Shown here piece by piece: positions 13,891 to 64,000 of a stretch of DNA of 64,000 nt (position 1 is its first letter; each line of letters begins with the position of its first letter). Made by a program: the position numbers and the translations under genes. Source of the stretch: Bradyrhizobium elkanii USDA 76. GTDB lineage: Bacteria > Pseudomonadota > Alphaproteobacteria > Rhizobiales > Xanthobacteraceae. The notes beneath the pieces were generated by a model that was given only the letters and a program-made list of their open reading frames with translations, was not told where the DNA came from and made no database searches. The stretch is taken from contig NZ_CP066357.1 of NCBI RefSeq assembly GCF_023278185.1, positions 310,001 to 374,000 of the forward strand, read 5' to 3'.

Positions 13891-14196
13891 ATGACGAAGA
13901 AGAGCCGCCGGACGCATTCTCCGGCATTCAAGGCGAAGGTTGCTTTGGCTGCGGTCAAAGGAGACAAGACACTGGCGGAGCTGGCGCAACTGTTTGATGT
14001 TCATCCGAACCAGATCACGATCTGGAAAAACCAGCTCCTGGAAGGCGCCGCCGGCGTGTTTGGGCATGACAAGACATCGGCCGAGACGCCGGTCGATTTG
14101 AAGGCGTTGCATGCCAAGATCGGCGAGCTGGCGTTGGAAAACGATTTTTTGTCCGGCGCGCTCACCAAGGCGGGCCTGCTGAGCGCAAAGCGATGA
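13891..14196 (+). CDS. IS3-family OrfA (ISa copy 2)
   Basis: Protein identical to OrfA of copies 1 and 3 as far as can be read: HTH start MTKKSRRTHSPAFKAKVALA, recognition helix region DVHPNQITIWK, C-terminal LENDFLSGALTKAGLLSAKR. AGGAGCGAAG precedes the ATG. Its stop overlaps the orfB start. Confidence 0.9.
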   Translation: MTKKSRRTHSPAFKAKVALAAVKGDKTLAELAQLFDVHPNQITIWKNQLLEGAAGVFGHDKTSAETPVDLKALHAKIGELALENDFLSGALTKAGLLSAKR

Positions 14197-21377: not shown

Positions 21378-22405
21378 GCGCAGGTGCATCCATCGAACGC
21401 GAGGGCGGGCGGCTGGTGCTGGCGCGCTACCTTGAGCCGCTGGCGCCGTACCTGGCGGACAACACCCTCACCGAAATCGTCGTCAACCGACCAGGCGAGG
21501 TTTTCGTGGAAGGACCCGACGGATGGACCCGGCATGAGCTAGCTGCCCTCACGCAAACTTACCTCTCACACCTTGCAACCGCAGCCGCCAGTCACACCCG
21601 CCAAGATATAGGGCCCGAGTACCCGGTGGTCTCGACCAGCCTGATCGGTGACGAGCGCTGTCAGATCGTGGTACCGCCGGCCGTCTCCGCTGGCATGATC
21701 AGTCTCACGATCCGCAAGCCCTCGATACTGACCATGAACCTGGACGCTCTTGAGCGGGCAAAGTTATTCGATGAGGTCCGCTCCGCCAGTGACGAGCTGG
21801 ATGCCGACGAGCATCGACTGCTCGCGCTGAAAGAAGCCGGCCACTGGCGGGAGTTCCTTGAACTTGCGGTAAGCACCCGCCGCAATATCCTGATCTCGGG
21901 GGCGACGGGTTCCGGCAAAACCACTCTGTCCAAGGCACTGATTGCGGCGATCCCGGCGCATGAGCGGCTGATCACCATTGAAGACACCGCCGAGCTCGTC
22001 ATCCCGCATCAGAATAGCGTTCGGCTGCTCTATGCCAAGGATGGACAGGGTGTGGCCAAGATCGGCCCCCGCGAACTCCTGGAATCGTCCTTGCGGATGC
22101 GGCCCGACCGCATCCTGCTGCAAGAATTACGTGACGGCACCGCCTTCTTCTATCTCAGGAACGTGAATTCGGGGCACCCGGGATCGATCACGACGGTTCA
22201 CGCTGACAGCGCTCGCCTCGCCTTCGAACAGATGACGTTGCTGGTCAAGGAGAGTGCGGAGGGACGGGACCTTCATCGCGACGATATCCGTTCGCTTTTG
22301 CTGCATCTCGTCGACGTGGTCGTCCAGATGCAGAAGCGCAATGGCCAGTATCGCATTTCGGAAATCTACTATGACCCCGATCGCAAACGCGACCACGCCC
22401 GCTAA
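21374..22405 (+). CDS. virB11: VirB11-type T4SS ATPase
   Basis: 343 aa hexameric traffic ATPase. The N-terminal domain (LADNTLTEIVVNRPGEVFVE) is followed by Walker A GATGSGKTT at about residues 175-183, the Asp box ITIEDTAELVIP, Walker B-type MRPDRILLQELRDGTAFFYL and the His box GHPGSITTVHADSA. It powers assembly and substrate transfer at the inner membrane. All motifs are complete. The end overlaps virD4 by 35 bp. Confidence 0.95.
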   Translation: MSAGASIEREGGRLVLARYLEPLAPYLADNTLTEIVVNRPGEVFVEGPDGWTRHELAALTQTYLSHLATAAASHTRQDIGPEYPVVSTSLIGDERCQIVVPPAVSAGMISLTIRKPSILTMNLDALERAKLFDEVRSASDELDADEHRLLALKEAGHWREFLELAVSTRRNILISGATGSGKTTLSKALIAAIPAHERLITIEDTAELVIPHQNSVRLLYAKDGQGVAKIGPRELLESSLRMRPDRILLQELRDGTAFFYLRNVNSGHPGSITTVHADSARLAFEQMTLLVKESAEGRDLHRDDIRSLLLHLVDVVVQMQKRNGQYRISEIYYDPDRKRDHAR

Positions 22406-24317
22406 GACTGCCCTCGGCACCGCGCTTGCGTTCGGCGCCGGCGCGGTCTTCCTGCTGGTTGCCTCGAACGTTCTGCTGCTCGGGCTCAGGCTCCACGATG
22501 GCGGCTTTCACTGGTCGGAGATCGCCACAGGCTGGCCGCGCTATGGCGCCGCCCCCCGCTTCGACCGCTGGCTGACTCTGTCGACGCTCGCTGGTCTGAT
22601 TGTGGTCTTTGGCCTGCTAGGCGCTATCCTCCGGCACCGTCCGCTTCCACTTCATGGCAAAGCCCGTTTCGCCTCCGAGCGAGAGATCAGGGCCGCCGGC
22701 CTACGATCCAAGGACGGACTGCTGCTCGGCCGCAAAGACGGAAAAATGCTCTGCTTCGGCGGATCGGAACATGTCCTCCTCTATGCCCCAACCCGGGCCG
22801 GGAAGGGAGTCGGCTATGTCATTCCGAACTTGCTCAACTGGCCGGACTCGGTTGTTGCGCTGGACGTGAAGAAGGAGAACTGGGATCGCTCGGCCGGCTT
22901 CCGCGCCGCGCACGGGCAGGAGGTCCATCTGTTCGATCCGCTCGACGAGAACGGTCGCACTGCGCGTTACAATCCGCTGGGGTATGTGCGCAGTGATCCC
23001 ACCGACCTGTATGACGACCTACAGCGCATTGCGGTGATGCTGTTTCCGGCCGAGAGTCGCGGGGATCCTTTTTGGTACGAGGCGGCTCGTTCATCCTTCG
23101 TGGCGATCGGCGGCTATATCTCGGAAACGCCGGGCTTACCATTGACGATCGGAGAGATCCTACGCCAGTTGTCGGCGACGCAGGATCTCAAAGCCCACTT
23201 CGACACGATCATCGCCGACCGCAAGGCGGGTCCTTCCCCGCTGTCGCGGCACTGCATCACGGCGCTGAATGATTTTCTCGCGGCCTCCGAGAACACGCTG
23301 AACTCGGTCCGCAAGACCGTGACGGCACGGCTCGGCCTCTGGCTCAATCCCCGCATCGATACCGCAACCTCGACCAATGATTTTGACCTGCGGAAGCTAC
23401 GCAAAGAGCCCATGTCGATCTATCTCGGGGTGACGCCAGATAATCTCGACCGCATGGCGCCGCTTCTGAACCTTTTCTTTCAGCAGGTGGTTGATCTCAA
23501 CACCCGCGAACTTCCAGAGCAAAATTCCAAGCTCACTCGCAAGGTGCTGCTCTTGCTCGACGAATTCCCGGCGCTCGGCAATGTCAATGTGCTGGCAAAA
23601 TCGGTCGCTTTCATCGCCGGGTACGGCATCCGCCTTCTCACGGTGGTCCAGAGCCCGGCGCAGCTACGCGCCATCTACGGGATTGATGCCGCGCGCAACT
23701 TCATGACCAATCACGCTGTCGAGGTCGTGTTTGCTCCGAAGGAGCAGGACGTGGCAAATGAGCTTTCGGAGCGCATCGGCTACGAGACCGTGAACGCGCG
23801 CAGTCGCAGTGGGCCAAAGGGGCTGGCGATGCGCGCAACCAGCGAGACGGTGTCCGAGCATCGTCGCGCTCTGATGCTGCCGCAAGAGCTGAAACTTCTT
23901 CCGAAATCCAAGGCCTTTATCCTCGGCGCGGGTATTCCACCCATCATTGCCGACAAGATCATCTATTACGAGGACAAGGCGTTCCTGCAGCGATTGCTGC
24001 CGGCCCCGGTCCCGGAATTGCCCAAAGGGCGCTCAAATGCACTGCTCGACGCCGAACTCAAGGAGCTGCGCTCCGAGATTGCCGAGCTTCGCGCCGTATT
24101 CCGGGCTCGGCCCATGACCGACGACGAGGTGGCCGACCCCGCCACGATTCCCGACAATGCCTCCTTCGACTTTGGTGACGTGAATGTCGACCTCGAAGGT
24201 CTCTCCGAAGACGACATGAAGGCCTGGACCCTGAACTACATCGATGCCCAGACCATCCCGCCGGCGCGACGGTCCGGCCGCAAGAAAAACGAGCCGCAGC
24301 ATGAACGACACGCGTGA
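22371..24317 (+). CDS. virD4: VirD4/TraG-type coupling protein
   Basis: 648 aa starting at ATG 22371; an earlier in-frame ATG at 22254 would overlap virB11 far more. There are two N-terminal transmembrane helices (LGTALAFGAGAVFLLVASNV, LAGLIVVFGLLGAILR). Walker A is in LYAPTRAGKGVGYVIPNLL (about residue 137) and Walker B in LLLLDEFPALGNV (about residue 392), with the TraG/VirD4 C-terminal region after that. It recruits the relaxase-DNA complex to the channel. Intact, and overlaps the next gene by 17 bp. Confidence 0.95.
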   Translation: MTPIANATTPAKTALGTALAFGAGAVFLLVASNVLLLGLRLHDGGFHWSEIATGWPRYGAAPRFDRWLTLSTLAGLIVVFGLLGAILRHRPLPLHGKARFASEREIRAAGLRSKDGLLLGRKDGKMLCFGGSEHVLLYAPTRAGKGVGYVIPNLLNWPDSVVALDVKKENWDRSAGFRAAHGQEVHLFDPLDENGRTARYNPLGYVRSDPTDLYDDLQRIAVMLFPAESRGDPFWYEAARSSFVAIGGYISETPGLPLTIGEILRQLSATQDLKAHFDTIIADRKAGPSPLSRHCITALNDFLAASENTLNSVRKTVTARLGLWLNPRIDTATSTNDFDLRKLRKEPMSIYLGVTPDNLDRMAPLLNLFFQQVVDLNTRELPEQNSKLTRKVLLLLDEFPALGNVNVLAKSVAFIAGYGIRLLTVVQSPAQLRAIYGIDAARNFMTNHAVEVVFAPKEQDVANELSERIGYETVNARSRSGPKGLAMRATSETVSEHRRALMLPQELKLLPKSKAFILGAGIPPIIADKIIYYEDKAFLQRLLPAPVPELPKGRSNALLDAELKELRSEIAELRAVFRARPMTDDEVADPATIPDNASFDFGDVNVDLEGLSEDDMKAWTLNYIDAQTIPPARRSGRKKNEPQHERHA

Positions 24318-25127: not shown

Positions 25128-25955
25128 TCATGCGGCCATCACCATAGCTTGCGTGCCGAAGTAAGCCTCGTCGGGCGTGCGCCCGTCAAGGCTCGAGTGA
25201 GGGCGTCCCTGATTGTAGAAGGCCAGATACTTGGCAATTGACGCTCGCGCCTCGGACACGCTGTCGTAGGCGCGGAGATAAACTTCTTCGTATTTGACCG
25301 TGCGCCAGAGCCGCTCGACAAACACGTTGTCGCGCCAGGCGCCCTTGCCGTCCATGCTGATGGCGATCTTCGCGTCCAGCAGCACATCGGTGAACTCGAG
25401 GCTGGTGAACTGGCTGCCCTGGTCCGTGTTGAAAATCGCGGGCCTGCCGTGCTTCGCCAACGCCTCCTGGACCGCTTCGACGCAGAAGGCCGCCTCCATT
25501 GTGATCGAGACGCGATGGGCCAGGACCCGTCGGCTGAACACATCGACGACCGCCGCGAGATAGACGAAGCCACGCCGCATCGGAATGTAGGTGATGTCCA
25601 TTGCCCACGCATGGTCGGGCCGCTCGATCTTCAATCCGCGCAACAGGTACGGGTAGATCTTGTGACCCGGAGCCGGCTTGCTCGTGTTCGGGCGACGATA
25701 GACCGCCTCGATCCCCATGCGCTTCATCAGCGTCGCGATGTGGCGGCGACCGGCGTATACCCCCTCCCGCCGCAGCAACGATCGCAGCATACGCGCTCCC
25801 GCGAAGGGATAATCGAGATGCAGCTCATCGAGCCGACGCATCAAGGCAAGGTCCTCGGCCGAAACTGGCCGAGGTTCATAGTAGACCGTGCTGCGAGCCA
25901 GCTTCAGGACCTTCGCCTGGCGCACGATAGAAAGATCATGACCGCGGTCGATCAT
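25128..25955 (-). CDS. IS3-family transposase OrfB (ISa copy 3)
   Basis: Intact 275-aa DDE transposase, identical by eye to the copy 1 protein. It has catalytic blocks MDITYIP and FNTDQGSQFTS and the terminal YNQGRPHSSLDGRTP. Overlaps orfA by 4 bp. Since this copy has a clean target duplication it is the most likely recent jumper. Confidence 0.92.
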   Translation of the reverse strand: MIDRGHDLSIVRQAKVLKLARSTVYYEPRPVSAEDLALMRRLDELHLDYPFAGARMLRSLLRREGVYAGRRHIATLMKRMGIEAVYRRPNTSKPAPGHKIYPYLLRGLKIERPDHAWAMDITYIPMRRGFVYLAAVVDVFSRRVLAHRVSITMEAAFCVEAVQEALAKHGRPAIFNTDQGSQFTSLEFTDVLLDAKIAISMDGKGAWRDNVFVERLWRTVKYEEVYLRAYDSVSEARASIAKYLAFYNQGRPHSSLDGRTPDEAYFGTQAMVMAA

Positions 25956-35509: not shown

Positions 35510-36985
35510 ATGCATGACACGGAGAAGTCTGACTCTGGCATAGTAGCTGAGAAGCCGACGAACAAAGCTGGATTACTGGCGGCGGAGTGGGCGGAGCCAA
35601 GGCCGGGGACCAAGGGAAACGCGGAACAGCAGCGCATGCACCGGACACAGGGCCGGGCTCGCATGACCCAGTCGCTGGACCGCGTACGGACAGCCGCAAG
35701 GCTGAGGAAGAAGGACCGGTTCACCGCGCTCTTTCACCACATCAATGTCGATACACTGCGGGCGGCGTTCTTTGCGCTCAGGCGTAGGGCTGCTCCCGGA
35801 GTGGATGGCATGACGTGGCAGGACTACGAGGAAGATCTCGAGCCCCGGCTCGCCGATCTGCACAAACGGGTCCAACGAGGAACGTACCGCCCGCAACCGT
35901 CTCGCCGGACGTACATACCAAAAGCAGACGGCAAGCAGCGTCCGTTAGCGATCGCGGCTCTCGAAGACAAAATCGTCCAGGGGGCCACCGTCATCGTGCT
36001 CAACGCCATCTACGAAGGAGACTTCTGTGGCTTTTCCTACGGGTTTCGGCCCGGCAGAGGACCACATGATGCGTTGGACGCGCTCTGCACAGCGATCGAG
36101 ACGCGGCAGGTGAACTGGATCATTGACGCCGACATCCAAAATTTCTTTGGCGCAGTCAGTCAACCTTGGCTGGTTCGCTTCTTGGAACATAGGATCGGCG
36201 ACAAGCGCATCATCCGCCTCATTCAGAAATGGCTGAAGGCGGGTATTCTCGAAGACGGCGTCGTAACCGCTGATGACAGGGGAACGGGTCAAGGTTCGGT
36301 GATTTCACCGCTCCTTGGCAACATCTACCTGCACTACGCTCTCGACCTGTGGGCCAAACGCTGGCGACAGCGCGAGGTCTCCGGCGGCATGATCATCGTG
36401 CGTTACGCGGACGATGTAGTAGTCGGCTTTGAGCGCGAGGATGACGCACGTCGTTTCCTTGACGCGATGCGCGCGAGACTGGAGGAGTTCGAGCTGACGC
36501 TCCATCCGGCCAAGACCCGCCTGATTGAGTTTGGTCGCCATGCGGCGGCTCAACGCAAGCAGCGCGGACTCGGAAAGCCGGAAACCTTTGCGTTCATGGG
36601 GTTCACGTTTATCTGCGGCAAATCACGCCGAGGGCGCTTCCAGCTTCAACGGAAGACCCGTGGCGACCGCATGCGAACCAAACTCCGCGAAATCAAGGAG
36701 GAGCTGAGGCGCCGAATGCACTGGCCGATCCCTGCACAGGGGAGATGGCTGAGGCAGGTCTTGACCGGCCACTTTGCGTACTTTGCTGTTCCGACGAATG
36801 GCCGAGCGCTCAATGCGTTTCGGTTCTACCTGACCGATCTCTGGAGGCGTACGCTTCGGCGGCGCAGTCAGCGGACCTGTCTGACCTGGGATCGCATAAC
36901 GCAGATCACCGACGACTGGCTTCCCAAGGCTCGCATCCTTCATCCATGGCCGAAGCTGCGCTTCGCCGTCAAACACCCGAGGTAG
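35510..36985 (+). CDS. ltrA: group II intron reverse transcriptase/maturase
   Basis: 491 aa from ATG 35510. RT motifs in order: AAPGVDGMTWQDYE (RT1), RPLAIAALEDKIVQGA (RT2), GFSYGFRPGRGPHDALDAL (RT3), NWIIDADIQNFFGAV (RT4), GTGQGSVISPLLGNIYLH (RT5), MIIVRYADDVVVGFE with the YADD active site, and FAFMGFTFICGKSRRGRF. The maturase X domain follows (LRQVLTGHFAYFAVP, WRRTLRRRSQ). No C-terminal HNH endonuclease is present. Intact; it would promote splicing and retrohoming. Confidence 0.95.
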   Translation: MHDTEKSDSGIVAEKPTNKAGLLAAEWAEPRPGTKGNAEQQRMHRTQGRARMTQSLDRVRTAARLRKKDRFTALFHHINVDTLRAAFFALRRRAAPGVDGMTWQDYEEDLEPRLADLHKRVQRGTYRPQPSRRTYIPKADGKQRPLAIAALEDKIVQGATVIVLNAIYEGDFCGFSYGFRPGRGPHDALDALCTAIETRQVNWIIDADIQNFFGAVSQPWLVRFLEHRIGDKRIIRLIQKWLKAGILEDGVVTADDRGTGQGSVISPLLGNIYLHYALDLWAKRWRQREVSGGMIIVRYADDVVVGFEREDDARRFLDAMRARLEEFELTLHPAKTRLIEFGRHAAAQRKQRGLGKPETFAFMGFTFICGKSRRGRFQLQRKTRGDRMRTKLREIKEELRRRMHWPIPAQGRWLRQVLTGHFAYFAVPTNGRALNAFRFYLTDLWRRTLRRRSQRTCLTWDRITQITDDWLPKARILHPWPKLRFAVKHPR

Positions 36986-49430: not shown

Positions 49431-51071
49431 CTAGTGCGCGGTAAAGCCCGGATAGCCACTTGCGGCGACTTCGTCGCACTTTTGCCGATAGTTGCCTGCG
49501 CCCCCGGTGTAGGCGAGTACTCGGCGCGGTTTGCCTTCAACGTTCGACCCCAAGTACCAGGAATTCGTCTTGGCGATCAGCATTGCGTTGGCGAGCTCGT
49601 CGTGATGCGCCACCCATTGATCTTCCAACTCTTCGGAGGGTTCGATTACCTTCAAATTGTTGTCCCGGAGATAGCTAATGCATCCAGTTATCCACTCGAC
49701 CTGCTGCTGCAAGCAGGTTGTCGCGTTGCAAAGCGCGGCCACCGGGGCAAGCGGCACTGCGGTCGTGAAGAGATTGGGATAGCCGTGCACCTGCAACCCC
49801 ATGGTGGTCCGGATGTCTCGGCCCCAATCCTCCTTCAGGGATCGTCCATCGCGGCCGCGGATGTCGATGCGGGTCAAAGCGCCCGTTGCTGCATCGAAGC
49901 CCGTTGCCAAGATGATGACGTCGAGCGGGTGAACTGTGCCGTCCACCGTCTGGATCCCTTCGGTCGTGATGCGCTCGATAGGGTTGGTCTTGACGCTGAC
50001 AACTTCCACATTGACTCGATGGAACGCCTCGAGGAAATTCTGCTCCAAGGGCACCCGATGAGTGCCGAATCCGTAATCGCTCGGGATCAGCAGGTCATAA
50101 AGTTTTGGATCTCTGAGCCGCTCGCGCATTTTCGCGCGCACGAATTCGGAGATCTCCGCGTTCACCGCCTCATCGAAGAACAGCTCGGCGAAGGACGATA
50201 TCCACAACTTCACGGAACCGTCGTTCCAGCAGTCTTCAATCACCCTGCGGCGTTGTTGCGGTGGCAGACCGGCCCAGGCGTACTCGACGTCATGTTCGAA
50301 GCCCGTGAACGTGTGCGGCAGTCGCTCGGTAAGGGTTTTGAACTTTGACTTGTAGGCCTCGACGTCCCCGGCAGTGTACTTGGAATTCTTCATAGGTATG
50401 ATGTATTGCGGCGTGCGGACGAATACTTTGAGATGGCCAACCTTTTCCGCGATCGTCTGGATCACCTGGATCCCCGTTGGTCCGTTACCAACCACGCCGA
50501 CGAGCTTCTCATCAAGATCGACCGGTTGCTGCGGCCATCGCGCCGTATGAAACACCTGCCCCTTGAACGCCTCCTGCCCCGGAAAGGACACATGGGGTGC
50601 CGAAAGCACACCGCAACAGGTGACGACAAACTGGGTATCGATCACATTACCTTTGTCGGTCACGACCACCCATCGCTCCGTCGCTTCATTAAAATGCGCG
50701 CTCTGGACCGTCGTGCCGAACTGAATGTCCTTGCGCAGGTCAAGCTGATCCGCCACGTAATTCAGCCAGCGTTCGATTTCGGGCTGGCTCGGAAATCTTT
50801 CGCTCCAGCTCCATCGTTTGTAGAGGTCTTCGGAGAAAAGGTACTGGTACTGGTAGCCTTCTGAATCGACCCGCGCACCAGGATAACGGTTCCAATACCA
50901 AGTGCCGCCGACACCCGAGGCAGCGTCGATCGCCCTGACGTTCAGCCCGAGCTCTCGTAGCCGGTACAGCTGGTAAAGACCGGCGATGCCTGCTCCGACG
51001 ACCAGGGCATCGAATTTCGTTGTCGCACGCCCGCCACTACGACAATTGTCCTTGTTCGGCGTCTTGGTCAT
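49431..51071 (-). CDS. Baeyer-Villiger-type flavin monooxygenase
   Basis: 546 aa. The FAD-binding Rossmann motif GAGIAG is at residues 26-31, the GGTWYWNRYPGARVD block at about 55-69, the BVMO fingerprint FKGQVFHTARWP at 169-180, and the NADPH-binding GNGPTG at 195-200. A closing ATGFDAATG motif is near 400. Such enzymes insert oxygen into ketones, giving esters or lactones, using FAD and NADPH. The gene is intact, with GGAGG about 6 bases before the ATG. It is separated from the VOC gene by debris; both may come from one catabolic cluster. Substrate unknown. Confidence 0.93.
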   Translation of the reverse strand: MTKTPNKDNCRSGGRATTKFDALVVGAGIAGLYQLYRLRELGLNVRAIDAASGVGGTWYWNRYPGARVDSEGYQYQYLFSEDLYKRWSWSERFPSQPEIERWLNYVADQLDLRKDIQFGTTVQSAHFNEATERWVVVTDKGNVIDTQFVVTCCGVLSAPHVSFPGQEAFKGQVFHTARWPQQPVDLDEKLVGVVGNGPTGIQVIQTIAEKVGHLKVFVRTPQYIIPMKNSKYTAGDVEAYKSKFKTLTERLPHTFTGFEHDVEYAWAGLPPQQRRRVIEDCWNDGSVKLWISSFAELFFDEAVNAEISEFVRAKMRERLRDPKLYDLLIPSDYGFGTHRVPLEQNFLEAFHRVNVEVVSVKTNPIERITTEGIQTVDGTVHPLDVIILATGFDAATGALTRIDIRGRDGRSLKEDWGRDIRTTMGLQVHGYPNLFTTAVPLAPVAALCNATTCLQQQVEWITGCISYLRDNNLKVIEPSEELEDQWVAHHDELANAMLIAKTNSWYLGSNVEGKPRRVLAYTGGAGNYRQKCDEVAASGYPGFTAH

Positions 51072-51089: not shown

Positions 51090-52067
51090 TTGACGACCTG
51101 CGAGGAGAACAGCAAGTATCGTACCAATGAGGGGAGGGGGCGCAAGAAGTCCGCAGTCCTAAGCGAGATGAAGCCGCCAAAGAATGGCTGTGAGCAGCGC
51201 CCCACGCGGTACTCTGACGTGTTCGGTGATCCCGTCGTCGCCACTGCGATCCTCGACCGGCTCCTGCACCACAGCCACATGCTGACGGTGAAGCCCTGTG
51301 TCAATTCGAATAAGAACGACGTGATCGACGCGGCTGCGATCGCCGAGGCCGTCACGCGGCCGACCATGCGCTTTGTTGAGATCAAGACGGAGACGCAGGC
51401 GGAGCTGCAAGCGCTTCACCGTATCCGCGACCGCATGGTAACCGGGCGAACCCGACTGATCTGCCAGATGCGGGCGCTGTGTATCGAGTTCGGCGTCGCA
51501 ATCCATCAGGGTGTGGGTAAGTTCAAGGCCGACATGCCGCGAGTACTAGCCAGCGAGGAAAACGACCTGACGCCGATGATGCGCCGGCTGCTGGGAGATC
51601 TGTTCGGCGACCTGTGCCATCTCGAAGAGCGGATCACCGAAGTCACCCGTGAGATCGAAGCAAATGCCGCAGAGGACGAGCGATCTCGACGGCTGATGAC
51701 AATACCCGGCATCGGCCCGCTCATAGCCACCGCAATCCTGGCTTCGGCTGGAGACGGTCGGCAGTTCCGCACCGCACGTGATATGGCTGCTTGGCTGGGC
51801 CTCGTCCCAAGACAGCACTCGACTGGCGGAAAGACGACGCTGCTGGGAATCAGCCGCCGAGGGAACCACTACTTGCGGCGCGTGCTCATCCACGGCGCAC
51901 GATCCTGTGTCATCCACCTTGATCGAAGCCGAGACCGGCTCGGCGCCTGGATCGACACCTTGCAGAAGCGCATGCACATCAACAAAGTCACGGTGGCATT
52001 GGCGGCAAAGGTCGCGCGTCGCATGGGTGATTCTCAATCGGCCGGGAGCAACCTACGAACGCCGTGA
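51090..52067 (+). pseudogene. IstB (IS21) tail fused in frame to IS110 transposase
   Basis: The first 60-70 codons contain YSDVFGDPVVATAILDRLLH and HHSHMLTVK, the C-terminus of the IS21 ATPase IstB. After KPCV the frame is IS110: NSNKNDVIDAAAIAEAVTRP, LMTIPGIGPLIATAILASAG, MAAWLGLVPRQHSTGGKTTL. Near 52012 a frameshift removes the end; the family sequence ARVAWVILNRPGATYE continues in another frame. The IS110 N-terminal catalytic Asp is missing, so the protein is inactive. Confidence 0.8.
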
Positions 52068-55499: not shown

Positions 55500-56680
55500 G
55501 CCGCTTCATCAGATTGCGCATCGGCGGTAGTTGCTAAGTATCCGTCCGGTGAGGACGTCAGTCAGATAGGCCTGCGGCTCGACGCCGCACAGCTTGCAGG
55601 TCTCGATCAGCCAAGCGACTCAGGCCCAGTTCTCCGCGCCCTCATCATGCCACGTGAACAGCGCATTCTTGCGGTTAAGGATAAGAGGACGGATGCTTCG
55701 CTCGACAACATTGGTGTCCAGCTCGATACGGCCGTCGTCGAGGAAGCGCGTCAGGCCAACCCAGTGGTTCAAGGCGTAACGGATGTGCTCGGCGATTGTC
55801 GCTTTGCCCGAGACGCGGGTGAGTTGCTGCTCGAACCAGGCCTTGAGCGCCAGCACCAGCGGCTTGCTGAGCTCCTGGCGGACGGCACGGCGCTCATCGG
55901 CGCTGCGGCCCCTGATCGACTTCTCGACGGCATAGAGAGCGGCGATACGCTCGAGTGCTTCACTCGCGATCGGGCAGGCCGTCCTGGCGCCGCCGCAGAT
56001 GAGCCCAGCAGAAGGCGAGCGTGATCGCCGCGTCAGGCCCGGTGTCGGCGACGGTCTTGTAGACGATATAGCCGTCGCATTGCACGATGCCGCGATAACT
56101 GTCGAGCAGCTTGAAGGCGTGGACGGCGCCGCGACCGGGCGCGTAAGTGTAGGCCACCGCCGGCGGGTCGGCCCCGCCCCACGGCCGATCGTCGCGCGCG
56201 ATCGCCCAGAAGAAGCCCTTCTTGGTGCGGCCGCGGCCGGGGTCGAGCACCGGCGCTGTTGTCTCGTCGACCGCGATCTTGCTCGCGGTCAGAATGATCT
56301 GCGCAGCCTGAGCCAGAGCGGACGAAGCTCCACGGCCGCATGGCCGCCCCAGAACGCCAGGACCGAGCGCTTGATGTCAATACCTTGCGCCAGCAGCACC
56401 TGAACCTGCCGGCACAGCGGCAGGTGCCAAGCATATTTGGCGACCGGCACATGGGCGACCATCGCCTCAGTTGGCAACCCGCCCTTGATCAGCCGCTCCG
56501 GTGCCGGCGCCTGAACCACGCCATCCGTGCAGGCCCGGCAGCCATATTTGGGGCGATGGGTGACGATCACGCGGAATTGCGCCGAGACGACATCGGGCCG
56601 CCGTGAGGTCTCCTCACCGATCACATGCCGAGGCGCGCGGCAGCACGGACAGCGGGTCATTTCTCGGTCTCGTGCCGTTG
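55500..56680 (-). pseudogene. IS66 TnpC, several frameshifts and a stop (unit 5)
   Basis: In order along the minus strand: RCPCCRAPRHVIGEETSRRP, VIVTHRPKYGCRACTDGVVQ, AKYAWHLPLCRQVQVLLAQG, then in other frames MLDPGRGRTKKGFFWAIARD, LLDSYRGIVQCDGYIVYKTV, ALKAWFEQQLTRVSGKATIA and NVVERSIRPLILNRKNALFT. A TGA follows GAENWA. tnpA and tnpB are missing. Distinct in sequence from units 1-3. Confidence 0.8.
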
Positions 56681-57339
56681 GAGCATTCGAGCGGCGCCAC
56701 CATCCGACGGTATCACCAAGGGCGGCAATGCTCTGGCGAGGCGCGCTCTGATCGAGGGGACGTTGATCTGAAGCGATTCGGCCCGAAAAACGGTCAACTA
56801 CAACAATTTGTAGCTTACGGAAGCTGCTATTCGGCTTAACATTCGAAATCATCGCGGTGACGGGCTTTGCGGCCGCATTGGAGCGGCTCCAATCACCGAA
56901 AGTCTCGTGTGATGCCAAGCTTCCTTGTTGTCAGTTCCAAATTGAAGGACGCCCAGCCAGATCCACCTAAGGCTGCGCGCTTTATGACGTTGGGGGGCTG
57001 TAATTAAGGAGAAGGGCAAGCAGGGTCATTCGCAGTTGGAGATCGCGCCGTACCCCAGTTCACTGCGCGACCGGAGGCTCGAGCCCGGAAGCCTGGCATT
57101 GGTCAAATTTCACGAACGGTTGGCTGCGGGGCTCGATTCCGAGATTGCCTTGGCGCCAGCGGTGCAAGACCTGCTAGACCTCCTCAATGGTAATCAGGTC
57201 GTCGCCATCGATGATGATGGCGCAGGCCCGCGACCTGGACACGGGGGGGTGTGCCCCGACCGCCGATCCCCGATCGCTGCTGTCGTTCGCGCTTTATTGC
57301 AACGTGCTGCTGAGTATATGCGCCCCGGAGGCAGACCAG
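56681..57339. other. 659 bp upstream region of the oxidase cluster
   Basis: A 136-codon ORF from TTG 57036 lacks a ribosome site and recognisable content. A GG-N10-GC pair at 57151-57166 resembles a sigma-54 -24/-12 element but could be chance. The promoter of the downstream genes should lie in this stretch. Confidence 0.4.
57151..57166 (+). promoter_or_regulatory. weak sigma-54-like -24/-12 match
   Basis: TGGCGCCAGCGGTGCA fits TGGCAC-N5-TTGCA at 13 of 16 conserved or spacer positions, including the GG and GC spaced by 10. It lies 174 bp before the ATG at 57340. I see no convincing NifA upstream site (TGT-N10-ACA). Confidence 0.2.
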
Positions 57340-58554
57340 ATGAATACCAACCCACCCGTTCAGCTCACCGCGAATTTCTCCATTTCCACTCGCGAGCAGT
57401 CGCCGCACCCGGCGCAGGGGCTATTTTCGCACAAGTCCGTTAGCATTGCTGGCCGGCAGCGAAAACGCCCGCTTGGCCTGCTCAGCGATTTTGTCACCGA
57501 TGAACTGCCGCACCGCGTTGCGGAGATTAGATGCAGTGAACAACCAAATGAGGCGGTCCGGCTCCTTGGCCGCAGCATCAACGCAATACTTTCGAAGGCG
57601 GACTATGATGCTCAGCTGCTGAGCCTACCGCAGTCCGATTTTGGCATCGCCAAGACCGACATCCATTATCTTGTCAATTGTTTGTATCAGATGTCGGCGT
57701 TTGCGGGTCTTAATCCGATGGACGCCGGGCGGACGGTGGGCGACCCGCTAAACCGCCTCGCACGCTTAAGCTGTCAGCAGCAGCCCAGCATTGATGTCCT
57801 CTCCTATGAAGATGTCATTCTCACGAATCCGTTGCAGAGCGACCCGCGCTTATATTGTCTCGGAGCGGCCGGGGTCGAGGAGCGAGATTTTTGTTTGGGC
57901 CATCAACTGATCGAGGGCGACTTACAATCAGCGATGGATGCTCTGCTTGAGTTGCGCGATACGCTCGACGTGGATGCGCGTCAATGTCTTACGCGGTGCT
58001 TGAAGCACCTTGACTCGGCAATTTATGTTCTGACCCGCTTTCATGAGCGGATGTCGCTTGATCTGTTTGGGCATTTTCGTGCGTACTATGTAAAAAATCC
58101 CTACAAGAATCGGCTTGGCCCAAGCGGCCGCTTTTCTGCTCGCATGGTGGCTGTCTCAGTTCTTCTCATGGGTGAAGAACTCTTTCACCAGAGCCTGCAA
58201 TTTTATAGGGACATATATCGACTATCTGACCACTATCCCCAAGCCTGCATTCGCGAGGTATTCCGCTGGCTAGTGCCAGATAACGGGAGTGGTGAACTCG
58301 ACCCAACTTGGTTAGAAGGGGGGGAGGCGGCATTTCCCAGGTCTGCGACTGTTTCGTCCGCTGTAGAACGCCACGGCTACGAGATCGGAAAACTGCGAGC
58401 ATCCTGTGTTCGTGCGTTAGATCAGTTCACCCGAATGCATCGTAACACGGCGTTAAAATATACCATTGAGCCGGGCCATTCAGTTAGCGGCGCCGAAGCG
58501 GAGGAGTGTGTTGAGGCCATCCTTTGTCAACGGCTATTGACGGCGCGGTATTGA
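57340..58554 (+). CDS. possible PrnB/indoleamine dioxygenase-like enzyme
   Basis: 404 aa from ATG 57340, chosen for GGAGG eight bases upstream (the frame is open from 57187). A Ser/Thr/Gln-rich start precedes a mostly helical protein. The central motif is LTRFHERMSLDLFGHFRAYY, then NPYKNRLGPSGRFSARM and LMGEELFHQSLQFYRD. The order His..R.., a Phe/Tyr-rich helix, G-P-S and a later acidic G-E-E reminds me of PrnB and other heme-binding IDO-superfamily proteins, in which a conserved His would bind heme. This is remote pattern matching. If right, the enzyme would oxidise an indole or related compound. First gene of the cluster running to 63119. Confidence 0.4.
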   Translation: MNTNPPVQLTANFSISTREQSPHPAQGLFSHKSVSIAGRQRKRPLGLLSDFVTDELPHRVAEIRCSEQPNEAVRLLGRSINAILSKADYDAQLLSLPQSDFGIAKTDIHYLVNCLYQMSAFAGLNPMDAGRTVGDPLNRLARLSCQQQPSIDVLSYEDVILTNPLQSDPRLYCLGAAGVEERDFCLGHQLIEGDLQSAMDALLELRDTLDVDARQCLTRCLKHLDSAIYVLTRFHERMSLDLFGHFRAYYVKNPYKNRLGPSGRFSARMVAVSVLLMGEELFHQSLQFYRDIYRLSDHYPQACIREVFRWLVPDNGSGELDPTWLEGGEAAFPRSATVSSAVERHGYEIGKLRASCVRALDQFTRMHRNTALKYTIEPGHSVSGAEAEECVEAILCQRLLTARY

Positions 58555-58670
58555 TAAAGATCCGACGCAATTGTCTAGTAACGAGATGCTGTAGCCGTCC
58601 GATAGTCGGGACGTATGGTCGATGTCCCAAAACGAAGCAGTCTTTCGTAGGTTCGCACCAGGAGATAGCG

Positions 58671-58925
58671 ATGCTGTATGGCGCCTACACAGAAGCGCGT
58701 TTGCGGATGCTGGTGCGCCCGGACGGGGCGTGCGCCGATGATTTACGCGATATCGGGAAAGCATACATTCGGTCAGGTGGCGACTTTACCATTGCGCATA
58801 TTGCTTTTCGGCTCGCTGCAATGGGAGGATTGAAAGCTGTTGATCGTGATGTCGCAGAGCTGAAGCGCATCCGGGTCAGATCCCGCCTTTCATCAACGCG
58901 GCCTTGGAAGGAGGATTCTTCGTGA
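58671..58925 (+). CDS. small hypothetical protein
   Basis: 84 aa from ATG 58671, with AGGAGATAGCG directly upstream: MLYGAYTEARLRMLVRPDGA, DDLRDIGKAYIRSGGDFTIA, HIAFRLAAMGGLKAVDRDVA. It looks like a small soluble helical protein. The frame is open upstream to 58524 but the ribosome site favours 58671. It lies 116 bp after the preceding gene and may share its transcript. No family recognised. Confidence 0.5.
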   Translation: MLYGAYTEARLRMLVRPDGACADDLRDIGKAYIRSGGDFTIAHIAFRLAAMGGLKAVDRDVAELKRIRVRSRLSSTRPWKEDSS

Positions 58926-59327
58926 ATTGGAATCAAGATCTGTTGCTCTGGGTGGGTACAGCCAGTGGCTATCAATTGGAGTGGCGCGCACCGCGAGAGG
59001 ACGGATGATCGGGAGGCGCATAAACGGGGAGGTTGCGCTCCCAAGGGGCTTTCTTTGTGGGAAAGCACTCGCAGATTCGGTCTATCGGCAGCAATGATTG
59101 GGCCAGGTTGAGCGCAATGTGACTCATCCGCGCTTAGCTTCCTTGAGGAAAGCTGAGAGAAGCTCCCGTATCGGCTCGAACTGGAGCGGGAGACGTTTTG
59201 TTCGAATCGGGCCGGCAGCACTGGTTGGATCACCGGGCATCTGTAAAAAAATATGGAAAGGAGATTGCGGAAGTGGTCCTATCGATTGCACTGCCGACGC
59301 CGTGAGAAATTTGAACTGGGAAGGGCT
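58926..59327. other. 402 bp gap before the dapA-like gene
   Basis: No supported ORF. It contains a palindrome at 59136-59154 and an AT-rich stretch (GTAAAAAAATATGG near 59243) that may hold the promoter of the four downstream genes. Confidence 0.4.
59136..59154. promoter_or_regulatory. palindromic operator-like site
   Basis: AGCTTCCT and AGGAAAGCT are near-perfect inverted arms around TG, about 175 bp before the dapA-like start. The arms are in the size range of LysR or GntR operators. It is not a tts box: the spacing differs. Confidence 0.25.
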
Positions 59328-60263
59328 ATGGACAGAAATAGTGTGAGTTGGTTCGGTTATATTCCTGCAATCACCACCCCCTTTCGCAAGAATGGATCTA
59401 TCGCGTGGGACGACTTTGCGGTGGAACTAGATTGGTATGTCACCGAGCGAATGCATGGTGTCGTAGTGGCTGGCACGTCGGGTGAATGGTTTAGTCTGAG
59501 CGAAGACGAGCGCAGTGAACTATTTAGTCAAACCAGCCGCGGTATCGATAGCCGCATCACGACATTGGGAGGTTGTAACGCCTACACGGCAGATGAGGCG
59601 ATTCGTCACGCCAGGGCCGCGGAGAGGGCTGGACTGGACGGCATTCTGCTGACGCCGCCTCCATATGTTGTGCCAAACAGGCGCGAGCTTGTTCAATTTT
59701 ACCGCGAAGTTTCAGACGCAACCGACATACCTATTTGTGTATACAACTGGCCCCGCGGTTGTGTCGTCGACATGGATATAGAGACTCTTAGCGAGATCTC
59801 CGATATAGATCACGTCGTTGCTATAAAAAACTCGACTGGAAATTTCTCCGCCTTCCTGGACGGCCTGTATGCTTTGGGTCGAAAAGTGCGTTACTTCAAC
59901 ATGCCCACTTCCGAGCTCGGAGCGGACATTGCGGGTCTTGGTCTCTCGGATGGGCTCATGGGAGCTGGCGGTATCCTGGGATCCGGGCATCCGGACTTTT
60001 GGCGTGCGATTCAGGAGGGCGACCGTCAACGAGCCGTGGTGCTCGGGGAGCGCGACCGGATCATCATGCGCGAATTGTTTAACAAGGACTACGCTGGTGC
60101 ATTTGGTAATGCGCAGGCAATTCTCAAAACTGCTCTGCGGTTGCGGGGTGTCCCTGCTGGGTACGTTCGCAGGCCCCTTCTTGATCTCGCTGCCGAGGAG
60201 GTTCGACGCGTCGCGGACACGCTCCAGCGCCTCGGGATTGAGGTTGTGAACGAAGATGCCTGA
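59328..60263 (+). CDS. DapA-family lyase/deaminase (HypD/LhpC-like candidate)
   Basis: 311 aa, class I Schiff-base TIM barrel of the dihydrodipicolinate synthase/N-acetylneuraminate lyase family. PAITTPF is at about residues 13-19 and the carboxylate-binding GTSGE at 49-53. The catalytic Tyr is in VYNWP (about 139) and the Schiff-base Lys in VVAIKNSTG (about 167). In the lysine pathway dapA is housekeeping. Here it lies next to genes for a heteromeric amine dehydrogenase, as does the deaminase of pyrroline-4-hydroxy-2-carboxylate in hydroxyproline breakdown. ATG 59328 follows GGGAAGGG. Overlaps the next gene by 8 bp. Confidence 0.88.
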   Translation: MDRNSVSWFGYIPAITTPFRKNGSIAWDDFAVELDWYVTERMHGVVVAGTSGEWFSLSEDERSELFSQTSRGIDSRITTLGGCNAYTADEAIRHARAAERAGLDGILLTPPPYVVPNRRELVQFYREVSDATDIPICVYNWPRGCVVDMDIETLSEISDIDHVVAIKNSTGNFSAFLDGLYALGRKVRYFNMPTSELGADIAGLGLSDGLMGAGGILGSGHPDFWRAIQEGDRQRAVVLGERDRIIMRELFNKDYAGAFGNAQAILKTALRLRGVPAGYVRRPLLDLAAEEVRRVADTLQRLGIEVVNEDA

Positions 60264-61431
60264 AACAGTCGATTGCCTAGTGGTCGGCGGCGGCTTGCTA
60301 GGCTCGGCACTGGCGTATTACTTGGTGTGTTCGGGGAGCACCGCGTGTCTTGTTGAGAAAGACCAACTGAATCAGCACGCCTCCGGGCGAAATGCGGGCA
60401 GCCTCCATTTCCAGCTCGAATATCGAATGATTGAGCACGGACTGGATGCAGCGAAGAAGGCGGCTGAGGCCCTGCCACTACATCTCGATGCCGCGCGGGA
60501 GTGGAGCCTGCTGAGCACTAGAATAGGTGAGAATGTTGGCGTCTTGCAGAGTGGCGGAATGATGCTTGCGGAAACGAGCGAGCAGGCGCTACTCCTGGAG
60601 AGAAAAACCGAACTCGAGCGCAGTTATGGGCTGGAGAATCGAATGCTTTCGAGCGATGAGATTCACCAGAGAGCACCTTATCTCAGCTCGGCAATTGTTG
60701 CAGCGGCGCTTTGCCCTCTAGAGGGTAAGGCGAATCCGCGCGGCGCCACTTTGGCATTTGCCAAAGTTGCTGAGGAGTTTGGAGCACGGATCCGGGCGGG
60801 TATAGCCGTGACCGGCGTGAAACAACAACGGGGCCGCTGGAGGACAACCCTTTCCGACGGGAGCGAAATTTTAGCGCGTAAGGTCGCCATTGCTGCAGGT
60901 CCCTGGTCGGCTCGCATCGCCGCTATGGCAGGGATTGCCCTTCCAGTCGTGCCGATCGGATTGATGATGGCGGCAACGGTCCAAGTGGCGCCATTTATCA
61001 AGCATCTCATCCAACATGCAGGACGGCGTCTATCATTGAATCAATCGGCCGAGGGTACCATTCTGGTAGGTGGGGGATGGCCCGCACGCCTGCATGAGAC
61101 AGGCGGAGTTTATGATCTGGATCTGCCGCCCGAAATCTTGCCTTCATCGATTCAGGGCAATTTGCGCGCCGCCGTTTCGGTGGTGCCGAGGATTGGTGAG
61201 ATCCCGGTCCTTCGCATATGGAGTGGTGCAACCTTGCTCGTTGCCGATCAATTGCCTCTTGTCGGAGCCTTGCCGCGCCGCTCGGATCTCTTCATTGCAA
61301 CAGGAGGATCCGCGTTCACGCTCGGGCCCACCTACGCGCGGGTACTTGCAAGCATGATCTTGGAGAAGCCTGTTGATCTCGATGTGTCGCGCTTCGATCC
61401 CGGCCGCTTCGTGAGTCTAAATAATGCTTAA
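60256..61431 (+). CDS. DAO-type FAD dehydrogenase subunit (beta)
   Basis: 391 aa. The FAD-binding GGGLLG is at residues 11-16, followed by SGSTACLVEKDQLNQHASGR with Arg and Gly typical of D-amino acid oxidase-like proteins. NPRGATLAFAKVAEEFGARI lies in the middle and LIATGGSAFTLGPTYARVLA near the end completes the FAD site. The length matches HcnC, the opine oxidase B subunit and the beta subunit of D-hydroxyproline dehydrogenase. It would oxidise an amino or imino acid in the membrane-associated complex formed with the next two products. Overlaps both neighbours by 8 bp. Confidence 0.9.
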   Translation: MPETVDCLVVGGGLLGSALAYYLVCSGSTACLVEKDQLNQHASGRNAGSLHFQLEYRMIEHGLDAAKKAAEALPLHLDAAREWSLLSTRIGENVGVLQSGGMMLAETSEQALLLERKTELERSYGLENRMLSSDEIHQRAPYLSSAIVAAALCPLEGKANPRGATLAFAKVAEEFGARIRAGIAVTGVKQQRGRWRTTLSDGSEILARKVAIAAGPWSARIAAMAGIALPVVPIGLMMAATVQVAPFIKHLIQHAGRRLSLNQSAEGTILVGGGWPARLHETGGVYDLDLPPEILPSSIQGNLRAAVSVVPRIGEIPVLRIWSGATLLVADQLPLVGALPRRSDLFIATGGSAFTLGPTYARVLASMILEKPVDLDVSRFDPGRFVSLNNA

Positions 61432-61717
61432 TGGGCATTACCTCCCGGGTTCACGCGGTTCGGAAATAGAACTATCCGTGAATGGCAATTCCGTCGTTTG
61501 CCACCGCGGTGATACTTTGCTTGCCGCCCTCCTTGCGTCCGGCCTGCGATCCTTTCGTCGGTCGATCGTTAGCAATGAGCCGCGTGCGCCATGCTGCAAT
61601 ACGGGGGTCTGTTTCGACTGCATGGTTACTGTGAATGGGACGTCATACATAAGGGCATGCATGATTGATGCCGAGCCCGGGATGGCCGTCGAGACCGGAG
61701 ACAAGACTGATGGCTGA
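61424..61717 (+). CDS. [2Fe-2S] small subunit of the heteromeric dehydrogenase (gamma)
   Basis: 97 aa, of the short ferredoxin type seen as HcnA and as gamma subunit of hydroxyproline or opine dehydrogenases. A beta-grasp start (IELSVNGNSVVCHRGDTLLA) is followed by the cluster-binding block PCCNTGVCFDCMVTV, with Cys at about 58, 63 and 66, and RACM with Cys 79. All four ligands can be accounted for. It is translationally coupled on both sides. Confidence 0.9.
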   Translation: MLNGHYLPGSRGSEIELSVNGNSVVCHRGDTLLAALLASGLRSFRRSIVSNEPRAPCCNTGVCFDCMVTVNGTSYIRACMIDAEPGMAVETGDKTDG

Positions 61718-63119
61718 TCTCAAGTGTTTTGACGTGGCCATCATTGGTGCAGGTCCGGCCGGTATGTCCGCAGCGCTTGAATGTTGTCGAAACCTATCCG
61801 TCGTTGTTTTCGATGAGCAAGGACGGGCAGGGGGGCAGATATTTCGACAGCCGCCGCCGCACCCCTCCGTCCAAGTGAACTCTCCCGCTTGCCGTCTCTA
61901 TCCCTTTGGCGATGTATTAGTGAGAAAGGCGGAGGCCGAGTCGCGCATAGACTGGCGATTCAGACAGACAGTTTGGGGCATATTTCCCGATGAGGATCGA
62001 ATCCGCGTTTGTACAAACAAAACAACCGTCTTGGCGAGGAAGACGTTGGTGGCCACCGGCGCCTATGAAATGCCAGTAGCTTTCCCGGGATGGACGCTTC
62101 CTGGCGTAATGGGGGTGGGAGCGATCCAGACGCTGCTCAGGAGCCAAAATGTCTTGCTTGGGCGGCGGTTCGTATTGGCGGGATCACACCCGCTTCTTAT
62201 TCTCGTTGCCGATATGCTTCTCGCGGCCGGTGCGGAGATACAGGAAGTTGCAATCGCGAGGTCGCGCCCTCGTTTTCGAGAGATCTTGGATGGATTGCTC
62301 GCCGTTCCTGGGAATATTCCAATTTTTAAAGAGACTGCTAGCTCTCTTTACAAACTCACAAAAGCGCGTGTGTCGATTCGGTTCGGGAGGATTATGGTCG
62401 AAGCTCGCGGTAACGAGGAGGGACTGACTCACGTTACGTTGTCAGATTGTGATCGCGATTGGATTCCGAGCGGAGCGCACCGTGTGTTTGAAACGGATAT
62501 TCTCGGGACGGGCTTCGGATTGCTTCCGTCCACTGAGCTTTGCCGCCAGATAGGTTGTGCAACACAATGGGATAGCCGAAATGGCGGCTGGATAGTGAAG
62601 CATGATGGATTTCAGCGTACCACTGTGAGAAACGTCTACGTGGCGGGAGAACCAGCGGGCATCCGCGGCGCTGCGAGCGCTCGTACTGAAGGCGAACTCG
62701 CGGGGCTAATGATTGTGCAAGACTTGATCCCGCAGCGGCGAGATGATCGATTGATCCGCCGTAACCTGTCGCAGACGAAGCGTAATCGGAAATTCTCGGA
62801 TCGAGTCGCGAAATTTTTTCAACCTAACATGAGAGCGCTGTCTGATCTGGCAAGCGATGGAACTGTGATCTGTCGATGCGAGGATGTGAAACGTTCTGCA
62901 GTCACGAAGTTTCTAGAGAGAAATAGCCACACGACCTCGATCAACAGTGTTAAGCTAGCCTGCCGTACTGGTATGGGCTTTTGTCAAGGACGATATTGTC
63001 ATCACACACTTGCGCAAATCCTGTCCAATGCCACAAGTCAGCCCGTTGAGCGGTGCGGAGAGTTTACGGCTCGGGTGCCGATCAAGCCAATTTCGGCCAG
63101 AGATTTATCAGATGTTTAG
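61710..63119 (+). CDS. FAD/NAD-binding subunit with C-terminal Cys cluster (alpha)
   Basis: 469 aa from ATG 61710. GAGPAG at residues 13-18 binds FAD, followed by GRAGGQIFRQPPP and the second dinucleotide region TLVATGAYEMPVAFPGWTLP. VYVAGEPAGIRGAASA is the closing FAD motif. The C-terminal domain has CRCED (about 387) and CRTGMGFCQGRYC (about 417-429), a BFD-like four-Cys site. The architecture is that of HcnB, opine oxidase A and the alpha subunit of D-hydroxyproline dehydrogenase. Last gene of the overlapping set. Confidence 0.9.
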   Translation: MADLKCFDVAIIGAGPAGMSAALECCRNLSVVVFDEQGRAGGQIFRQPPPHPSVQVNSPACRLYPFGDVLVRKAEAESRIDWRFRQTVWGIFPDEDRIRVCTNKTTVLARKTLVATGAYEMPVAFPGWTLPGVMGVGAIQTLLRSQNVLLGRRFVLAGSHPLLILVADMLLAAGAEIQEVAIARSRPRFREILDGLLAVPGNIPIFKETASSLYKLTKARVSIRFGRIMVEARGNEEGLTHVTLSDCDRDWIPSGAHRVFETDILGTGFGLLPSTELCRQIGCATQWDSRNGGWIVKHDGFQRTTVRNVYVAGEPAGIRGAASARTEGELAGLMIVQDLIPQRRDDRLIRRNLSQTKRNRKFSDRVAKFFQPNMRALSDLASDGTVICRCEDVKRSAVTKFLERNSHTTSINSVKLACRTGMGFCQGRYCHHTLAQILSNATSQPVERCGEFTARVPIKPISARDLSDV

Positions 63120-63847: not shown

Positions 63848-64000
63848 TTACGAGGTGCGGCCGAACGACCAGGGCAGGAGCTCGTCGATCCGGGACTGCG
63901 GGTGACCGGTTGCGATCGCTTTGAGCGTCGCTTTCATCCAGACGTAGGGCTCCACGCTGTTGATTTTGCAGGTGGCGATGAGCGAAGCTATGCGCGCCCA
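63848..64000 (-). CDS. IS66 TnpC, C-terminus (continues beyond window)
   Basis: Reading in from the right edge: WARIASLIATCKINSVEPYV, WMKATLKAIATGHPQSRIDE, LLPWSFGRTS to TAA 63848. This is the final segment of an IS66 TnpC of a type different from units 1-5. Completeness cannot be judged. Confidence 0.78.
   Translation of the reverse strand, partial: WARIASLIATCKINSVEPYVWMKATLKAIATGHPQSRIDELLPWSFGRTS

Follow-up and report, generated by a model that had tools for sequence, protein, structure and literature searches.

A putative NifA-type operon of nodulating rhizobia with an IDO-like protein, and its apparent relic beside an oxidase gene set in Bradyrhizobium elkanii

We have analysed a stretch of 64,000 nucleotides from Bradyrhizobium elkanii USDA 76 (contig NZ_CP066357.1, positions 310,001 to 374,000), hereafter the window, which lies on contig C2 of a genome that consists of two contigs. 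At the centre of the analysis stands a block of six same-strand open reading frames (ORFs) between positions 57340 and 63119 (Table 1): a 404-codon ORF (gene 1), a small second ORF and four genes for a DapA-family protein and three subunits of a flavin dehydrogenase. The block probably combines two unrelated modules that have become neighbours on a Bradyrhizobium plasmid of the conjugative type: module A (57340-59070), the relic of an operon, and module B (59328-63119), acquired laterally. The main interest resides in the intact counterpart of module A, and not in a joint pathway, the four-gene oxidase set alone being of a known kind. We propose that nodulating rhizobia of several genera have a NifA/sigma54-controlled operon that specifies a new family of IDO-like heme oxygenases, a HemN-like partner and an N-acyltransferase, and makes an undiscovered nodule metabolite derived from an aromatic amino acid; the window would hold a dying copy of it. 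To this proposal as a whole, we tentatively attach a probability of about 0.45.

Gene 1 is present in 26 of 197 relatives, and in 19 of these 26 it is the middle gene of a complete HemN-like/IDO-like/GNAT operon, in which all three genes are near full length and without stops. In Rhizobium gallicum, the gene for the HemN-like radical SAM protein stops 17 bases 5′ of the gene 1 homologue and the GNAT gene comes after it. The IDO-like and GNAT parts constitute one polypeptide in R. tropici CIAT 899 and in a Mesorhizobium protein (P0013). In the remaining seven relatives (the genome of the window itself, G076, G023, G075, G070, G113 and G069), the stretch seen contains no intact HemN-like gene, and gene 1 is interrupted or partial in six of them, being open only in the window's own copy. 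On plasmids, orthologues of the HemN-like protein with at least 60% identity occurred in five records (search at E ≤ 1e-40), and gene 1 was present on each of the five; the next best match was at 30%. In seven chosen operon pairs, the ratio of amino-acid-changing to silent substitution rates (dN/dS) was 0.06-0.12 for the HemN-like gene, 0.12-0.39 for the IDO-like gene and 0.14-0.61 for the GNAT gene. In B. australiense (L002), the operon is located directly upstream of uptake hydrogenase genes. Our literature searches, which covered open-licence papers, retrieved no description of this operon, nor is it described in the available parts of PMC8305402, PMC4999443, PMC3557214, PMC6608401, PMC4113996 and PMC4575208. 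In the vicinity of the fused IDO-GNAT gene on the R. tropici plasmid pRtrCIAT899b (L041 1-21131), the annotation shows genes for a reverse transcriptase and for SLATT and Shedu SduA domains, together with a radical SAM system of the His-Xaa-Ser type.

The region upstream of the operon was studied in a promoter set of 25 loci (L002-L005, L008, L041, L042 and 18 fetched stretches), apart from L001, L006, L007, L039, L069, the window's own copy and the G069 fragments. The set includes Bradyrhizobium, Mesorhizobium (L005) and Rhizobium (L042), and the full operon is extant in 21 of its 25 loci. We scanned up to 900 bases before the start of the HemN-like gene in 22 loci (L041, L065 and L068 are without that start). 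A sigma54 -24/-12 element, TGGCAC-N5-TTGC, was found on the correct strand in 21 of the 22, where dinucleotide shuffles would lead one to expect 0.02, at 289-790 bases 5′ of the HemN-like start codon; the single locus without it, L067, has a broken operon. An exact NifA-type site, TGT-N10-ACA, is located 94-115 bases upstream of the -24/-12 element in nine of these 21 loci. The other 12 have such a site with one mismatch at 95-124 bases, which is weak taken alone, and paired sites of this type (one mismatch allowed), 20 bases apart, recur in 16 of the 21. To judge from these motifs, the intact operon is preceded by a sigma54 promoter and NifA-type upstream sites, and NifA-dependent expression is predicted. 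The nodulation gene nodA occurs in 26 of the 26 relatives with gene 1 as compared to 65 of the 197 overall (hypergeometric p = 5e-15, kinship ignored).

The leader between promoter and operon gave some minor observations. FixK boxes were present in three of six leaders scanned. We considered a conserved small leader protein, as the peptide precursor for a radical SAM enzyme, but do not propose one: the leader ORFs share a short start in some loci, differ in length and frame, and are missing in others. In four leaders (L051-L053 and L066), ORFs of 140-167 amino acids start with M-K/T-L-A-R-L-I-Q-I-N, possibly a fourth gene that is being lost or is shrinking.

Gene 1 is an open ORF with a GGAGG ribosome-binding-like site 8 bases 5′ of its ATG. 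Its relatives are few: a search of 5.8 billion proteins returned 40 at E ≤ 1, and those with a named source all come from Bradyrhizobium, Rhizobium, Ensifer/Sinorhizobium or Mesorhizobium, many others being unnamed metagenome proteins. One relative carries the name DUF1864 in its public record, which we take to be the former name of the PrnB family. Our family profile comprised 31 sequences, i.e., the window's protein and 30 of the 40 relatives, to the exclusion of the identical P0001, the fused P0013 and the short P0033-P0040. Searching with this profile, in which only the 7994 candidates sharing most words were scored, added a fragment (P0041) and a distant relative from Dongiaceae (P0042), and the plasmid search added a Kitasatospora protein with 28% identity over half of the query. 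On its plasmid (Kitasatospora fiedleri, L043, 9728-12202), this distant IDO-like gene is directly followed by a gene annotated as biotin carboxylase, possibly in a small natural-product cluster.

The original prediction ventured that the 404-residue protein has features of IDO or PrnB, and the superfamily part of this idea stands on profile and fold, while the family PF08933 (PrnB) did not match. In the Pfam scan, the one match of gene 1 was a weak one to IDO (PF01231; E = 0.11; 11.7 bits, below the cut-off of 26), and this model was matched at E ≤ 1 by 19 of the 31 family members, with a best E of 0.002. In the profile alignment to bacterial IDO, His367 is in register with the heme-ligand His and Arg247 with the Arg that binds the carboxylate of the substrate; the heme-ligand His is His346 in IDO1 numbering. 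His367 is invariant in 31 of 31 and in 9 of 9 sequences, and Arg247 is invariant together with it in the latter nine, which include two distant ones. The fold tests on gene 1 recovered the superfamily fold with SO4414, itself close to a PF08933 member, as the top match. By sequence, the PDB gave no relative of gene 1 at E ≤ 5. On account of the fold matches, the profile match to bacterial IDO and the conserved putative heme-ligand His and substrate Arg, gene 1 very likely belongs to the IDO/PrnB superfamily of heme-dependent aromatic oxygenases (IDO1, IDO2, SO4414, PrnB, MarE and the TDO enzymes). It shares with its members the predicted fold and the two residues in register, and differs from them in its identity of 10-16% in the VIA rows, in missing the Pfam thresholds of both IDO and PrnB, and in its linkage to a HemN-like gene and a GNAT gene. 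PrnB proper was tried as an assignment and dropped, although SO4414 heads the fold list, after the PF08933 search of the genome and the profile comparisons had given nothing: there was no match anywhere in the genome at E ≤ 10, in a search that does find members in 3 of 299 other genomes.

The HemN-like protein has Radical SAM and HemN_C domains in common with the HemN/HemW/ChuW-HutW family, unlike which it remains below every NCBIfam cut-off, has Phe instead of Cys at the fourth position of the motif CxxxCxxCxF, and occurs on plasmids (at least 60% identity) only together with the IDO-like gene. An alternative function for the intact operon is the handling of heme: the HemN-like protein, in the manner of HemW or ChuW/HutW, would be a heme chaperone or a radical SAM enzyme that opens the ring, the IDO-like protein would carry or sense heme, and the GNAT protein would have a regulatory role. 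This would agree with the similar scores of the HemN-like protein on HemN (194 bits), STM4012 (193), ChuW/HutW (182) and HemW (168), all sub-threshold, as well as with the motif, present in 21 of 21 near-full-length copies. We nevertheless hold it to be rather unlikely, since the joint invariance of His367 and of Arg247, which takes the place of the IDO Arg for the substrate carboxylate in the alignment, points to an amino acid as the substrate.

The function that we favour, production of a metabolite, starts from what is seen in the sequences, namely the order of the genes, the promoter motif, the joint occurrence with nodA, the fusion of IDO-like and GNAT parts and the conservation of the His and the Arg, and from fold and profile for the superfamily. 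The sigma54 promoter and NifA-type sites would switch the operon on in microaerobic, nitrogen-fixing bacteroids. There, the IDO-like enzyme would bind heme b via His367, use Arg247 to hold a tryptophan-like amino acid by its carboxylate, and oxygenate this amino acid; the GNAT enzyme may acylate the amine of the substrate or the product, and the HemN-like protein may load heme or catalyse a radical reaction. A metabolite specific to nodules would result. In animals, IDO and TDO control signalling through tryptophan and kynurenine; PrnB and MarE take part in the synthesis of natural products. If the proposal is true, a relative of IDO/TDO under a nitrogen-fixation-type promoter in several rhizobial genera is a testable lead to a symbiotic metabolite: there are three genes to examine, induction by NifA at low oxygen is predicted, and so is the residue that binds heme.

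In the window, we found neither remnants of the HemN-like gene and its leader nor an exact sigma54 site of the operon type; transposase debris lies at their place, and a gene annotated as “transposase” occupies the matching place in a B. barranii plasmid. The genome has five HemN-like paralogues (24-28% identity), none of them an orthologue (best 28%). The original prediction took all the genes of the block to be uninterrupted. This does not apply to the small second gene (58671-58925), for which there was no Pfam match: with the 160-residue GNAT protein of R. gallicum (L042:11271-11753; Pfam Acetyltransf_1, E = 1.1e-15) as the query, tblastn returned successive pieces at 58622-58723, 58719-58877 and 58879-59070, and the small ORF is the middle one. 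We count it as debris, because the broken GNAT gene lies in three frames; the GNAT gene is full length and without stops in 24 of the 25 other loci of the promoter set. Module A in the window is, by its sequence, a damaged, orphan copy that has apparently lost the HemN-like gene and the promoter, in which GNAT is broken and gene 1 is in frame.

The sister copies of gene 1 are further gone. The gene matches 14 Bradyrhizobium plasmid records, of which one (pS05J) is identical, two come from B. barranii and have the gene in two pieces, one (strain 187) is a 70% copy with the HemN-like gene also on the plasmid, and the other ten match within residues 1-76 only. A G-rich tract in gene 1 has 10 bases in the window and 9 in the copies of B. 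viridifuturi and B. barranii, and the frame is split there: in B. viridifuturi and in the B. barranii copy that was compared base by base, gene 1 lacks one base and is frameshifted, while it is in two pieces in the other B. barranii plasmid. These copies illustrate the way in which genes of this kind are lost from the symbiotic plasmids of soybean bradyrhizobia.

Several results weigh against the proposal in one part or another. The 21 promoter-bearing loci are related, some of them near identical, and the counts do not represent independent events. The profile match to IDO reached a probability of 89 with the two distant relatives included and 18 without them, and the profile comparison of the gene 1 family with PF08933 proteins was nil (probabilities of 0.4, obtained with the three members found, and 0.3). 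The best Foldseek hit of the gene 1 model had an E of 0.066; unrelated helical folds were among the top Foldseek rows of a second model; and the VIA superpositions on superfamily members had root mean square deviations of 5.4-8.3 Å over 267-308 residues. These weak Foldseek values, and the middling Z scores that helical proteins attain by chance, would suit the alternative that the match reflects a generic helical bundle and that gene 1 falls outside the IDO superfamily, which we regard as most improbable next to the profile match and the two residues in register. As to decay, gene 1 in the window is open over 404 codons with a dN/dS of 0.18-0.22 to the operon copies and may still be used, and its excess of amino-acid-changing over silent differences with B. 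viridifuturi (19:10, codons 326-335 excluded) relative to the four oxidase genes (31:35) was not significant (Fisher p = 0.12). Finally, outside the 26 relatives, Bradyrhizobium LMTR 3 (L006) keeps an open IDO-like stretch with a broken GNAT gene and no HemN-like gene, and R. tropici (L041) keeps its open IDO-GNAT gene beside a truncated HemN-like gene; with these two, the tie between the IDO-like and HemN-like genes is not absolute.

Some of these observations would be expected if gene 1 still worked alone in B. elkanii, served by the housekeeping HemW and by an acetyltransferase that is encoded at another place in the genome. The open frame, the GGAGG before its ATG, the five HemN-like paralogues and the case of L006 would speak for it; against it are the lack of any promoter found, the loss of the partner genes, the broken copies in sister plasmids, and the disruption of gene 1 in six of the seven relatives without an intact HemN-like gene. 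We deem this alternative improbable and prefer to view module A as an operon relic.

The original prediction went on to unite all six genes in a joint pathway under selection as a set. In such a pathway, the IDO-like enzyme would open an indole or make an imino acid, and the dehydrogenase and DapA-type deaminase would degrade the product. The genes are indeed adjacent on the same strand, and the combination was encountered in four replicons only, namely the B. elkanii plasmid pS05J, two plasmids of B. barranii and a B. viridifuturi contig. These four are, however, much alike, being copies of a single stretch; three of them have gene 1 with a frameshift or split in two, while the oxidase genes can be aligned over their full length in the two compared; and the GNAT pseudogene lies in between. 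Moreover, 24 of the 26 genomes with gene 1 have no dapA orthologue (2 of 197 relatives have one, at E ≤ 1e-70), and among 38 loci, most of them taken with 1.5 kb of flank and seven with 10 kb, those of the genome itself and of B. viridifuturi were the only ones to show the oxidase genes. The partners of gene 1 are the HemN-like and GNAT genes. On co-occurrence, we rejected the joint pathway, which is largely refuted and has in our estimate very little chance of being right; two separate modules are the better account.

Better founded was the recognition of the four subunit families in module B, which Pfam bore out, with a BFD-type [2Fe-2S] domain in the FAD/NAD subunit, and so was the likeness to the gene set for D-hydroxyproline dehydrogenase plus deaminase. 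The four genes are intact, with overlaps of 8 bases between neighbours; we place the start of dapA at the ATG at 59328, its searches having used the in-frame stretch from 59322. In Streptomyces, the hydroxyproline operon SCO6289-6292 specifies beta, gamma and alpha subunits and a deaminase, according to the available part of PMC6608401. Module B contains the same four families as that operon and as LhpB-F-E with the Pyr4H2C deaminase LhpC, and likewise has dehydrogenase genes in beta-gamma-alpha order side by side with a DapA-family deaminase gene; it differs in that dapA comes first and no epimerase was found in this genome. The prediction had noted no epimerase in the cluster, and this holds genome-wide: the Pro_racemase family (hydroxyproline 2-epimerase) gave no match at E ≤ 1e-10, in a search that was positive in 1 of 14 control genomes. 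In the absence of any Pro_racemase member, the full L-hydroxyproline route is not evident. The opine dehydrogenase OdhB-C-A also has three subunits (beta-gamma-alpha), with flavins and [2Fe-2S] prosthetic groups, and the part of PMC4575208 available names no DapA-family protein as part of the enzyme, whereas in module B a DapA-family gene is adjacent. By its sequence, module B is predicted to specify a dehydrogenase of the D-hydroxyproline/opine type together with a DapA-family protein, a set of known kind. The simplest reading of its substrate is a D-configured or N-substituted compound; the dehydrogenase and the DapA-type imino-acid deaminase may act on a cyclic or N-substituted D-amino acid, for which no epimerase would be needed.

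At E ≤ 1e-80, dapA was found in the genome itself and in no other among 398 genomes of the same phylum, while a large protein set contained 630 DapA relatives at E ≤ 1e-60. Apart from a near-identical first match, the 120 relatives listed have 62-84% identity; those named belong to Burkholderiales, Pseudomonas, Serratia, actinobacteria and a few alphaproteobacteria, with Massilia, Achromobacter and Verminephrobacter as the closest. The nearest solved structures are ordinary dihydrodipicolinate synthases. In Embleya, the four genes occur in the same order (57, 54, 38 and 40% identity) next to a helix-turn-helix-cupin regulator and a peptide-type ABC transporter, and the 25-kb locus contains no module A gene. 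The neighbourhood on a Novosphingobium plasmid consists of LysR, thiamine pyrophosphate-enzyme and cyclase genes.

Table 1. Features in and around the block (window positions).
Feature	Position	Strand	Remarks
Transposase debris	55620-56918	-	At the place of the HemN-like gene and promoter in other genomes; ORFs, IS66-like by inspection of translations only
IDO/PrnB-superfamily protein, 404 aa (gene 1)	57340-58554	+	Orphan from the HemN-like/IDO-like/GNAT operon of rhizobia; His367 predicted to be the heme ligand and Arg247 to bind the carboxylate
Pseudogene of a GNAT acetyltransferase, its three pieces each in another frame	58622-59070	+	tblastn with full-length 160-aa homologue
DapA (DHDPS)-family lyase/deaminase	59328-60263	+	Pfam DHDPS, E = 1.5e-43; NCBIfam dapA, 129.7 bits (cut-off 206)
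DAO-family beta subunit of heteromeric flavin dehydrogenase	60256-61431	+	Pfam DAO, E = 1.2e-54; closest solved chain 1y56_B
Fer2_4 [2Fe-2S] gamma subunit	61424-61717	+	Pfam Fer2_4, E = 2e-24
FAD/NAD alpha subunit with BFD-type [2Fe-2S] domain	61710-63119	+	Pfam Pyr_redox_2, E = 1.5e-20; Fer2_BFD, E = 6.4e-08; closest solved chain 1y56_A
End of IS66-family transposase gene, downstream of block	63848-64000	-	Annotation moved from pS05J (L039 24509-26053), colinearity assumed

The complete block is base-for-base identical to positions 18001-23780 of L039, the B. elkanii plasmid pS05J, which comes from a soybean-nodule strain and is typed as conjugative; in agreement with this typing, the window encodes a TraG/VirD4-type conjugative coupling protein (22254-24317, + strand). 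An FMO-like flavin monooxygenase (49431-51071, - strand) has the same protein accession in pS05J and B. barranii, and a sigma54-like site with one mismatch (51112-51126) lies 41 bases before its start, where 2.2 such sites per window are expected by chance. Three ORFs of equal length, 275 amino acids (4135-4962, - strand; 14193-15020, + strand; 25128-25955, - strand), are probably copies of one insertion sequence; the first, the sole one scanned, has an rve integrase-core domain. A reverse transcriptase ORF (RVT_1; 35510-36985, + strand) possibly stems from a group II intron.

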